NCBI GenBank assembly: GCA_902510965.1
Contig: CABXDM010000007.1
Span: 1-38,600 of the forward strand
Reading direction: 5' to 3'
DNA length: 38,600 bases
Origin: an uncultured Candidatus Actinomarina sp.
GTDB lineage: Bacteria > Actinomycetota > Acidimicrobiia > Actinomarinales > Actinomarinaceae
The first letter of the stretch is position 1, and every line of letters starts with the position of its first letter. Below, one piece after another: positions 12,686 through 16,408 of this stretch. The notes beneath the pieces were generated by a model. That model had not been told where the DNA came from, did not search any database, and saw only the letters and a program-made list of their open reading frames with translations. Position numbers and translations under genes: made by a program.

Positions 12686-14425
12686 GTGATTAATAAAAAA
12701 TATTTAATTATTTTCCTTTTATTCCTTACCACCTGTTCTGAAAACTCATTACCTATTAATGAAACAACAACTACCTCAACTACATTAATTTTAAATGAAA
12801 TAAGTAATGAAGAAGAACCAGATATTTACGTTATGTTACTTTGGCATCAGCACCAACCATATTATCCAAAAGACGCAGATGGACACTTTACAAAACCGTG
12901 GGTAAGGTTGCATGCTACGAAAGATTATTTAGATATGGTTGAACTTGTCCAAAAGTATGAAGGTCTCAGAGTTACCTTTAACCTTACACCAACTCTTTTA
13001 AATCAATTAAGAGAACTGGAGAATGGCACAAAAGATATATATTGGGTACACACTGAGATTGAAGCACAAGAACTAGATGATGATCAAAAAACATTTATTA
13101 GAAATAGATTCTTTGATATAAGTTCAAGAACAATAAATAAATCTTCAAGATACTTAGAACTTAAGAATCTTAGACAATTTCCTGAAAAATGGACAGAAGC
13201 AGACTATCTAGATTTACAAGTTTTATTTAATCTTGGTTGGACTGATCCTAAGTATTTATTAGAAGAACCACTTAATTCTATTAATCGTAAAGAGTCAAAT
13301 TTTACAGAAAATGATAAAACCACTGTACTCGAAGTTCATATGGAAATAATTCAAAAAGTAATCCCCACACATCTAAAAGCTTATCAAGAAAATGATATTG
13401 AAATCATAACAACTCCGTATGCACACCCAATACTTCCACTTATTCATGATTCAAATCTTGGAAAAATTGGAGATACACAGTCTCCTTTTCCAGAAAACAA
13501 TTACAAATATCCTGAAGATGCACAAGTTCATGTAACAAAAGGAAAACAGGTCTTTGAAAACAATTTTGGATTTTCTCCTAATGGTATGTGGCCAGGAGAA
13601 GGTGCAGTTGCTCAGGATGTTTTAAAATATTTTAATAATGAGAATATATCTTGGATAGCTTCAGGAGAACAGCCTTTATCTAAATCATTAGATGTTAGAT
13701 TCCAACGCTGGGTTGGGGGAGTATCTTCAAAACCAGAATTACTTTACAGGCCTTGGAATACCAAACTAGATAATGGAGAATCCGTAGCAATATTTTTTAG
13801 AGATAATTATCTTTCGGATAACATGTTTAGCTACTCTAGCAAGAGATCAGATCTTGCAGTTGCTGAGTTTGAAAATACAATGCTGAAAATTCGTGAAAAA
13901 ACAACTGACTTAGATTTCACCCCAGTGGTTTCGATTATTGCTGATGGCGAGAATTTCTGGGAATCCTATTCCAATGACGGTATAGATTTTCTTAACGGAA
14001 TGTATGACGTTCTCACAAAATATGAATGGATTCAAACCGTTACTCCTTCCGAATATTTAGAAATGCATCAAAAAAATCTAGATGTCATTGAAAATCTTTA
14101 TCCTGCGTCTTGGTTTCAACCAAATTATGCCACCTGGATAGGAGAGGTTGACGAAAATGTAGCTTGGGATTATTTATATCAGGTAAGACAAGATTTTGAA
14201 ATAGCTAAAAACTCTAATAAGTACTCAAGTGACCAAATAAATGCTGCGTACGAATATATATTACTTGCCGAAGGATCTGATTGGTTTTGGTGGTATGGAG
14301 ATGATCAGGACTCTAGTGTAGATGAATACTTTGATAAAGCTTTTAGAACTCTACTATCAAACGTATATATTGAGCTAAATACAGAAATACCAGAATTTTT
14401 AGATGAACCCATTAACAACTATTAA
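12686..14425 (+). CDS. GH57-like glycoside hydrolase, predicted lipoprotein
   Basis: 579 residues starting at GTG 12686 with GAGG a few nt upstream. A signal sequence ends in the lipobox FLTTC, with Cys17 as the lipid site. A Thr/Ser-rich spacer follows, then the GH57 catalytic domain: [10 protein letters not shown] at 51-60, [25 protein letters not shown], a probable nucleophile in SGEQ, and [11 protein letters not shown] as the acid/base region. GH57 enzymes act on alpha-glucans (amylase, branching enzyme, 4-alpha-glucanotransferase) or galactosides. Most are cytoplasmic, so surface anchoring is unusual and suggests extracellular polysaccharide use. No transporter is adjacent; the nearest, 20368-22375, is of oligopeptide type. 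Confidence 0.85.
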
Positions 14426-14744: not shown

Positions 14745-14859
14745 CTGTTTCTGGGGTAAATAAACCAATTAATAATATAAAAACTAGATGATGAAACTAC
14801 CTTTTTTCCCAATATAAATGGCTTAGTTGTGAGATTTGAACAGTAGAGTATTTAATCAA

Positions 14860-14919
14860 TGTATTATAATATTTACATAATGTATGTTATACTATACACA
14901 ATGTATGTTATACTATACA
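14860..14919. promoter_or_regulatory. Triple operator array upstream of the XRE-regulator operon
   Basis: Two identical 18-bp imperfect palindromes, TGTATGTTATACTATACA, lie at 14881-14898 and 14902-14919. A degenerate third copy, TGTATTATAATATTTACA, lies at 14860-14877 and matches 12 of 18. All three start exactly 21 bp apart, two helical turns, so bound dimers would sit on the same face of the DNA. Embedded TATAAT/TATACT hexamers can serve as -10 boxes, so a bound regulator would block transcription. The likely ligand is the XRE protein encoded at 15444-15668. Confidence 0.75.
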
Positions 14920-14956
14920 TATAGAATAAATTACAAAAACATAATTAAGGAGAATA

Positions 14957-15007
14957 ATGAAAAATAAGTATTTGAAAGAGATCAGATTGAAAGTTATAGG
15001 GTTATAA
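14957..15007 (+). CDS. 16-codon leader ORF before the membrane protein/XRE pair
   Basis: MKNKYLKEIRLKVIGL, preceded by AAGGAG with a 4-nt spacer, the strongest ribosome-binding site in this stretch. Its stop lies 2 nt before the ATG at 15010, which has no good site of its own, so translation may be handed over from this peptide. It may be a coupling or leader peptide; it is too short to assign a function. Confidence 0.45.
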   Translation: MKNKYLKEIRLKVIGL

Positions 15008-15009
15008 GT

Positions 15010-15432
15010 ATGAACACAAAACTTATAGGAATATTAGCAGAGATAGGCGCAACATCACTAACGATGATTTGGACGTGGAGGAACTTAAGTGGATTCTCAA
15101 CAATGACTATAAAGTCAATTTCTAAAGTCCTTACACAGGGAATCGGGATCGTTATTGTGGCAGTTGTTTTGGTCTCAATATTTGTTTCTATTTTTTCAGC
15201 AGTTCAAAGTGGAGATCATAGTGGTGCAGGTCTTGAAGATGAAAGAGATAGAATGTATGAACTATATGCCACACAACTCAGCAGCGGTATATTTGGCTTG
15301 GCCATGGTAACAGTTCTTATTTTAATGGGCTGGTTTAATCTTTCCGTCAACGCAGGACTTATTGCTATTGTCTACTCAGGATTTACTGCAGTTGTTGCAA
15401 GCGGTATTTTAAAAATGTATCTTTATAGATAA
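15010..15432 (+). CDS. Four-helix membrane protein paired with an XRE regulator
   Basis: 140 residues with hydrophobic segments near 5-22, 44-67, 93-111 and 115-137, and a charged loop (about 70-90) rich in Asp/Glu/Arg. It resembles small DUF2178-type membrane proteins often encoded next to short XRE regulators, but no firm family call is possible. It lies 11 nt upstream of the regulator gene and downstream of the triple operator, so the pair is probably autoregulated. Function unknown; an envelope-sensing or immunity-like role is speculation. Confidence 0.7.
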   Translation: MNTKLIGILAEIGATSLTMIWTWRNLSGFSTMTIKSISKVLTQGIGIVIVAVVLVSIFVSIFSAVQSGDHSGAGLEDERDRMYELYATQLSSGIFGLAMVTVLILMGWFNLSVNAGLIAIVYSGFTAVVASGILKMYLYR

Positions 15433-15443
15433 TAAAGATAAAA

Positions 15444-15668
15444 ATGGCAAAAAAGAAAATCAAAATAGAGAACTCAGTTAGAAAACTAAGGTTTAACAAT
15501 AATGAGATGACACAACAAGAACTTTCTGATTTAGTAGGTGTTACTAGGCAAACAGTGGTGGCTATTGAAAAATACAAGTACACGCCATCACTAGAGTTAG
15601 CATTTAAAATTGCATTGGCATTCGATAAAGAGATACAGGAAGTATTTTACATTAAGGAGTACTCATAA
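15444..15668 (+). CDS. Short XRE-family (Cro/YozG-like) HTH regulator
   Basis: 74 residues, almost only a helix-turn-helix domain. MTQQELSDLVGVTRQTVVAI is the HTH (about 22-41), followed by EKYKYTPSLELAFKIALAF and EVFYIKEY, the signature of the small YozG-type subgroup. It probably binds as a dimer and represses its own operon through the 14860-14919 boxes. Effector unknown; the membrane protein before it is the likely functional partner. Confidence 0.9.
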   Translation: MAKKKIKIENSVRKLRFNNNEMTQQELSDLVGVTRQTVVAIEKYKYTPSLELAFKIALAFDKEIQEVFYIKEYS

Positions 15669-15681
15669 GGATTATGAAGAA

Positions 15682-15700
15682 GAGTAATGCACTATTACTC
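15682..15700 (+). repeat. Hairpin after the XRE gene
   Basis: GAGTAAT, loop GCACT, ATTACTC: a perfect 7-bp stem with a 5-nt loop. There is no T-run directly after it, so it is more likely an mRNA 3'-end stabiliser or a weak terminator than a classical one. Confidence 0.5.
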
Positions 15701-15753
15701 ATACTCAGTAAATAAGCTTTTACGGGTTAACATAATCAATCAATATATTTAAA

Positions 15754-15809
15754 TGTTGCTAATAGTTACATAAAAACTATAAGTGTGTATAATGTTACTA
15801 TCAGCAACA
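15754..15809 (+). promoter_or_regulatory. Promoter flanked by an 18-bp inverted-repeat operator
   Basis: TGTTGCTAATAGTTACAT (15754-15771) and ATGTTACTATCAGCAACA (15792-15809) are reverse complements at 16 of 18 positions. They flank a TATAAT -10 at 15788-15793: the left arm covers the -35 position and the right arm overlaps the -10 and start site. Bound protein would therefore repress. The probable binder is the HTH protein encoded at 15823, giving autoregulation. Confidence 0.75.
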
Positions 15810-15822
15810 TAAAGAAGAAAAA

Positions 15823-16266
15823 ATGAATTTAGTAGGATTAAAGGAATTAGCAGAACTATTAGATGTGCCTTATGACACATTAAAAGTTTGGAAAAACAGA
15901 GATAGGCTACCAGAACCGTTTGAAGTTATAAGTGGGACGCCGATCTGGGATTGGGACACATCAGAAGAAGATTTTAGATCTATTGAAAAAAATGAAAACT
16001 CAGGAAGACCCAAGAAGCCGAAAATTTCAATTGCTGGTGGATTAATTGAAATTGATGTACAGGGTAGTAGCAAAGATAAAGATGAAAATATTTCAATTAG
16101 GCTAAACGGAAAGACCTTTGTTGATGTCAAAGCAGAACCAGCCAATTCTAAAAATAAGTCTGATAGAAATTTGTCTATAAAAGTTTTAGGTAAAAAAGTT
16201 ATTGATATAAACACAGATGATGTCATTGAAGTTGATGGAGAGGATACAAACAGTGAAGACAGTTAA
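15823..16266 (+). CDS. HTH protein with a three-fold beta-strand repeat
   Basis: 147 residues. Residues 4-46 look like a winged helix-turn-helix of the phage-regulator/MerR-like kind: LKELAELLDVPYDTLKVWKN, then a wing ending SGTPIWDWD. After a basic linker (GRPKKPK) come three copies of a pattern I/L-S-I-x3-G-x3-I/V-D-I/V at 67-80, 89-104 and 116-131, predicted as short beta hairpins. An acidic tail follows. The repeat recalls beta-solenoid or DUF4097-like sheets but I cannot name the family. The start has a purine-rich upstream region (AAAGAAGAAAAA) and lies 13 nt after the right operator arm. It overlaps the small membrane protein downstream, which suggests a DNA-binding/membrane pair. Confidence 0.75.
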   Translation: MNLVGLKELAELLDVPYDTLKVWKNRDRLPEPFEVISGTPIWDWDTSEEDFRSIEKNENSGRPKKPKISIAGGLIEIDVQGSSKDKDENISIRLNGKTFVDVKAEPANSKNKSDRNLSIKVLGKKVIDINTDDVIEVDGEDTNSEDS

Positions 16267-16408
16267 GTTTGAAGTAGGAAGATTTACTGGTAGTGCTATA
16301 GCTTTATTATTGCTTGGCTTAGTTGCTACGGTCAGCATATTCATTCTTAAAGTAGCATTTACAATTGCCGCAATTGGTATATTAATCAAAATATTCTCAA
16401 GAAATTAA
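16253..16408 (+). CDS. Small membrane protein coupled to the HTH protein
   Basis: About 51 residues from GTG 16253, with GGAGAGG 9 nt upstream inside the previous gene; ATG 16235 or 16217 would add 6 or 12 residues. There is a short amphipathic N-terminus, then a hydrophobic stretch of ~38 residues (one or two helices) ending in a basic tail (IKIFSRN). It overlaps the HTH gene by 14 nt. No family recognised. Confidence 0.6.
   Translation: MKTVKFEVGRFTGSAIALLLLGLVATVSIFILKVAFTIAAIGILIKIFSRN

Follow-up and report, generated by a model that had tools for sequence, protein, structure and literature searches.

SdpR of Bacillus subtilis is an ArsR-type repressor, and SdpI, encoded with it, is a larger polytopic protein. 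SdpR is an autorepressor, which SdpI, the other product of the sdpRI operon, sequesters at the membrane (PMC1626106). The regulator BldC is a stand-alone winged helix-turn-helix protein of 68 residues whose binding sites are direct repeats in head-to-tail order (PMC5859096). The classical, dimeric regulators of the MerR superfamily combine a winged helix-turn-helix (HTH) with palindromic DNA sites, and the genomes of Candidatus Actinomarina, in which the genes described below are found, are highly streamlined. A study of Actinomarinales genomes described the order as being without identifiable toxin-antitoxin systems, two-component systems and mobile elements (PMC7771536).

The stretch of DNA analysed in the present study (the window, 38.6 kb) is an entire contig of a Candidatus Actinomarina genome (810 kb, 67% complete). 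It includes two overlapping genes, P1 and P2, which encode a putative DNA-binding protein and a putative membrane peptide and are preceded by a predicted promoter with paired operators (Table 1). Judging by sequence comparison, most of this cassette is covered by no known family. The interpretation preferred here, with confidence about evenly balanced, is that P1/P2 constitute a horizontally moving, self-regulated (autorepressed) two-gene cassette with P2 as a membrane effector.

Table 1. Predicted features of the P1/P2 cassette, in coordinates of the window
Feature	Position	Strand	Description
Operator O1 (predicted)	15753..15771	.	imperfect 19-bp palindrome ATGTTGCTA-A-TAGTTACAT; covers -35
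-35-like hexamer GTTACA	15765..15770	+	consensus match only
-10-like hexamer TATAAT	15788..15793	+	consensus match only
Operator O2 (predicted)	15792..15810	.	imperfect 19-bp palindrome ATGTTACTA-T-CAGCAACAT; overlaps -10 edge and expected start site
P1, 147 aa	15823..16266	+	winged HTH ~1-55, GRPKKPK linker, beta-hairpin-like repeats 66-130, variable acidic tail 131-147
Repeat unit 1	16024..16059	+	ISIAGGLIEIDV, residues 68-79; one residue shorter than units 2 and 3
Repeat unit 2	16090..16128	+	ISIRLNGKTFVDV, residues 90-102
Repeat unit 3	16171..16209	+	LSIKVLGKKVIDI, residues 117-129
P2, 51 aa	16253..16408	+	GTG start; RBS GGAGAGG at ~16237-16243; 14-nt overlap with P1

Distribution and genomic context

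The genome set used for comparison contained one genome per species, and the genus was represented by 42 Candidatus Actinomarina genomes. P1 and P2 were found together in four of them, namely the window genome (G000), G025, G027 and G033, so that the comparisons below are based on four sequences, all from incomplete genomes. The named relatives of P1 belong to Candidatus Actinomarina (AG-333-E10) and Acidimicrobiaceae bacterium AH-558-F08, and no good match to P2 was found without P1. The cassette occupies two unrelated loci. It is located upstream of a cytochrome b561 gene in G000 and G025 and downstream of uppS in G027 and G033, an M48-type protease gene coming next in G033 (the names uppS and M48 were assigned by eye from the translations). 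Genomes G019 and G032 match the flank in G033 with 95% and 92% identity, but their intergene measures 46 bp, compared with about 750 bp in G033. The search for phage or plasmid carriers of the cassette in the collections examined was negative, and neither a tRNA-anchored island nor a known RNA element was found.

The stretch following uppS, where G033 and G027 hold P1/P2, is an insertion hot spot (L042, L044, L053, L062-L064). Cytochrome b561 is found there in G015, G034 and G031, and a class V aminotransferase-like gene (identified by eye) in G004, G003 and G016.

A second small cassette is located directly upstream of P1/P2 in the window (14770-15730). It contains genes for a 140-aa probable membrane protein (15010-15432), which has no Pfam match and is absent from the other 41 genomes of the genus, and for a 74-aa HTH protein of the Cro/C1 type (15444-15668). 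G025 lacks this cassette, though its flanks match. Inspection by eye showed that ATGTATGTTATACTATACA is perfectly repeated in direct orientation at 14880-14919, upstream of the second HTH/membrane cassette. The two 19-nt copies lie 21 nt apart; each has TGTAT...ATACA symmetry, and the pair may be the doubled operator of that cassette. Further upstream, a gene of glycoside hydrolase family 57 (12686-14425) has a tryptophanase-like gene on one side and a 59-aa membrane ORF on the other. In G025 and G038 the tryptophanase-like gene adjoins the 59-aa ORF, without the glycoside hydrolase gene.

The putative regulator P1

The N-terminus of P1 resembles MerR/excisionase-like winged HTH domains, and the HTH proposed in the first-pass annotation is borne out by weak matches. 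The Pfam scores lie below the cut-offs (MerR_1, 14.3 bits against 21.6; MerR, 12.2 bits against 28.2), and the PHROG matches include a DNA-binding family (E 1e-4) and the excisionase-type PHROG 66 (E 0.0036). Arthrobacter phage DNA-binding and excisionase proteins are 30-44% identical to the P1 HTH over up to 63 residues. The linker NSGRPKKPK that follows the HTH is conserved in the four copies apart from a single K-to-R change and looks, by eye, like an AT-hook core. An antisense open frame of 118 aa is located inside P1 (15870-16226, minus strand), with similar frames in the other copies, and is probably a by-product of codon use.

The excisionase-type and phage matches would also suit a remnant of a phage or integrative element, in which P1 would once have been an excisionase-type regulator that happened to be retained, next to an incidental small gene, P2. 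This explanation is quite improbable: both genes are under purifying selection, the predicted promoter and operators are intact, the neighbouring genes that were examined included no integrase, the window contains no tRNA, and the repeat domain of P1 occurs in none of the viral, phage and plasmid collections searched.

The remainder of P1 had been described as three beta repeats, and this description holds in part. The pattern I-S-I-x3-G-x3-V-D-V fits all three units, and at least two units were obtained in none of 200,000 shuffles, in a test with a pattern chosen post hoc, when the sequence had already been seen. Units 2 and 3 are significantly alike (alignment score 45, 0 of 5000 shuffles), but unit 1 is shorter and weak, having one residue fewer before the G and no significant alignment to the other units. 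In a first, ungapped three-window test the best triple, which took in the acidic tail and not the three units, was not significant, being reached by 13 of 150 shuffles. A lack of conservation in this region, which the first-pass annotation had named as refuting its proposal, was not what the four copies showed: within P1, conservation is highest in units 1 and 3, with 12 of 13 and 15 of 16 residues kept, versus 5 of 17 in the acidic tail.

AlphaFold2 modelling with the four sequences yielded winged-HTH-like and hairpin-like secondary structure with pLDDT of 39 and 46, values too low to establish the fold of P1. These low-confidence models (pLDDT below 50) show strands in the C-terminal region and no long helix. 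The repeat domain was not found outside the four carriers in 395 genomes of the class and 396 genomes of the phylum (overlapping samples). Pfam and PDB matches to the repeat region (viral coat P2_N, CBM_X2, sodium channel beta-4) had E of at least 0.01 and were treated as chance.

Promoter and operators

The region upstream of P1 contains an inverted repeat with 19-nt arms (O1 and O2 in Table 1), which are complementary at 17 of 19 positions and separated by a spacer of 20 nt. None of 200 random upstream regions generated with a first-order Markov model reached 17/19, and the top value, 16/19, was obtained once. In the window both arms are also imperfect 19-bp palindromes with 7 of 9 pairs each, and the candidate sites of the four carriers have 6-8 of 9 pairs. 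Since each arm is itself palindromic, the repeat is better described as two operators than as one long operator; a single long inverted repeat (cruciform or terminator) was rejected for this reason and because of the constant spacing. The inverted repeat that had been noticed around TATAAT is accordingly real and beyond chance, but consists of two palindromic operators, over the -35 and over the -10 edge and start.

The promoter is sigma-70-like (GTTACA-17-TATAAT), with 10 of 12 consensus positions matched and a 17-nt spacer. Given the positions of the hexamers, the -35 falls within the left arm, and the right arm shares the final two bases of the -10 and also includes the expected start site. 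This predicted placement of O1 and O2 is a repressor-type layout.

The operator pair, two tandem imperfect palindromes of 19 bp (ATGTTACTANTAGTAACAT) on the promoter of P1 itself, is kept in all four carriers at a distance of exactly 39 bp, with the sites 69-71 and 30-32 bases upstream of the start codon. The half-site, derived from 16 half-sites of four genomes, is ATGTTaCTA. The spacer between the operators is less conserved than the sites: compared with G025, the window is 95% identical in O1, 84% in O2 and 80% in the spacer, and compared with G027/G033, 89%, 68-79% and 55%, respectively. No further ATGTTACTANTAGTAACAT site with up to two mismatches was found in the four carrier genomes, and a regulon beyond the own promoter was rejected on this ground. 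A looser pattern gave one site with two mismatches (G000:C22:5750), and the reversed control pattern also matched. The conservation of the site pair in four genomes and its exclusiveness to the own promoter strongly support the self-operator suggested by the first-pass annotation. From the linkage of gene and sites we infer that P1 is the operator-binding protein, though the operators could be those of another regulator.

The membrane peptide P2

The start of P2 is common to all four copies, where GTG or ATG stands behind GGAGAGG or AGGAGG. The products have 51-58 aa and are mostly hydrophobic, with a lysine conserved in the middle of the protein, and P2 probably has two short membrane-spanning stretches flanking K33. 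The overlapping small membrane gene had been predicted with a start at 16217. The overlap and the membrane peptide were retained, but that start is not conserved and was rejected in favour of 16253, which gives a product of 51 aa. A search of Pfam and NCBIfam with the 63-aa reading of P2 gave no match up to E = 1. The earlier failure to match the locus to a known system is thereby corroborated by database searches for the repeat domain and the membrane peptide. As far as can be read from its sequence, P2 may be a toxin, an exclusion or immunity factor, or a P1-recruiting receptor like SdpI.

The first of these roles corresponds to a type II-like toxin-antitoxin pair, with P1 as both antitoxin and autorepressor and P2 as a toxin that disrupts the membrane. 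This narrower variant of the preferred interpretation is advanced only tentatively (the confidences given to the competing explanations overlap). The DNA-binding gene comes first and is followed by a small second gene with a 14-nt overlap and a conserved RBS, and the paired operators on the promoter, the sporadic occurrence and the mobility point in the same direction. However, no toxin-antitoxin family match to P1 or P2 was obtained in four libraries, and only P1 was exchanged, with the precision of a gene (see below). The reported absence of identifiable toxin-antitoxin systems from the order (PMC7771536) counts against this variant and against the preferred interpretation as well.

Selection and exchange of P1

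Where dN/dS was computable, it was 0.11-0.33 for P1 and 0.13-0.21 for P2, and both genes are under purifying selection. Together with their joint presence at two unrelated loci, this supports the initial view of the DNA binder and its membrane partner as one unit. Between the window genome and G033, identity is 93% for P1 but only 76% for UppS and 74% for the b561 proteins, which indicates that P1 moved horizontally.

The mosaic structure was studied at informative sites, defined as those with one base shared by G027 and G033 and another in G025. Within the coding region of P1, from 15850 to about 16250, the window matches G027/G033 at all informative sites but one, while in the promoter/operator region and in P2 most informative sites match G025. 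The dS values between the window and the other carriers are 0.10-0.19 to G027/G033 and 1.3 to G025 for P1, and 0.68 to G025 and saturated to G027/G033 for P2. These data indicate that the coding region of P1 was exchanged almost exactly from the start codon to the overlap. P1 stands beside P2 alleles that are only 56% identical to each other. The exchange implies that both types of P1 recognise the same operators and function beside these divergent alleles, which makes a very specific contact between P1 and P2 less likely.

The latter point bears on a membrane-sequestered one-component sensor similar to SdpR/SdpI, in which P2 would sense a signal, either in the membrane or across it, and pull P1 off the operators, raising expression of the cassette. 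The operon logic of an autorepressor and a membrane protein is that of sdpRI (PMC1626106), operators at the own promoter only, as observed in the four genomes, are expected for a self-contained immunity loop, and the C-terminal domain of P1 is conserved. Nevertheless, a P2 of 51 aa leaves little room for a receptor domain, SdpI being polytopic, and P1 alleles have been swapped between divergent P2 alleles; such a sensor is possible but unlikely. The first-pass annotation also proposed a sensor, and an accessory or selfish module fits the sporadic occurrence and horizontal movement at least as well.

Proposed mechanism and comparison with known systems

It is most likely that P1/P2 form an accessory self-controlled module with the membrane peptide as its working part. 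In the preferred interpretation of an autorepressed mobile cassette, P1 probably binds the two palindromic operators as symmetric dimers and, sitting on the -35 and -10/start sites, probably represses its own operon. Palindromic sites are not accounted for by a MerR-like winged HTH alone, and for this reason the conserved beta-hairpin domain is probably the dimer interface, or else contacts P2. P2 would be translated with P1 and insert into the membrane as an effector of growth inhibition, exclusion or immunity, its level being kept low by P1. Repression, dimerisation, the effector role of P2 and any contact between P1 and P2 are what we infer from the arrangement described.

A more far-reaching version is doubtful. 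According to it, P1/P2 would be a new mobile addiction/immunity module, with a MerR-like winged HTH that dimerises via undescribed beta-hairpin repeats, controls itself from paired palindromic operators and has a two-span membrane peptide coupled to it. It would be spreading in streamlined marine actinobacteria said to be without toxin-antitoxin systems and mobile elements, its regulator gene being exchanged alone at exact boundaries.

A tiny module with a promoter, operators and membrane peptide of its own, occurring at unrelated loci and with a regulator exchanged between lineages, represents gene traffic missed by family-based annotation. With two ATGTTACTANTAGTAACAT sites at a distance of 39 bp, the operator prediction is precise enough for direct testing, and it raises the question of how a palindrome is bound by a MerR-like winged HTH without a recognised dimerisation helix.

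With the MerR superfamily, P1 shares an N-terminal winged HTH and palindromic, here predicted, DNA sites. It differs in scoring below the Pfam cut-offs and probably in having hairpin-like repeats in place of the coiled coil, and MerR operators are located in a promoter spacer of 19-20 bp, whereas here the spacer has 17 nt and the predicted operators lie over the -35 and the -10/start. Membership of P1 in this superfamily fails, as far as these comparisons go, on score and operator position. Proteins of the excisionase/AlpA type and BldC have no recognisable coiled-coil dimerisation region, a trait that P1 may share, and the excisionase-type families provide the closest matches to the P1 HTH. 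Unlike BldC, however, P1 has 147 aa with a conserved extra domain, and its candidate sites are palindromes and not direct repeats, so that an assignment to the BldC type fails on size and predicted site symmetry.

Type II toxin-antitoxin systems share with P1/P2 the overlapping small genes, the DNA binder in first position, the paired operator sites on the own promoter, the sporadic occurrence and the mobility; they differ in that P1/P2 match none of their families and P2 is a membrane peptide. SdpR/SdpI have the same layout, an autorepressor and a membrane protein in one operon, and no sequence relation to P1/P2 was seen. With membership established in neither, the cassette may be likened in its logic to toxin-antitoxin systems or to SdpR/SdpI.
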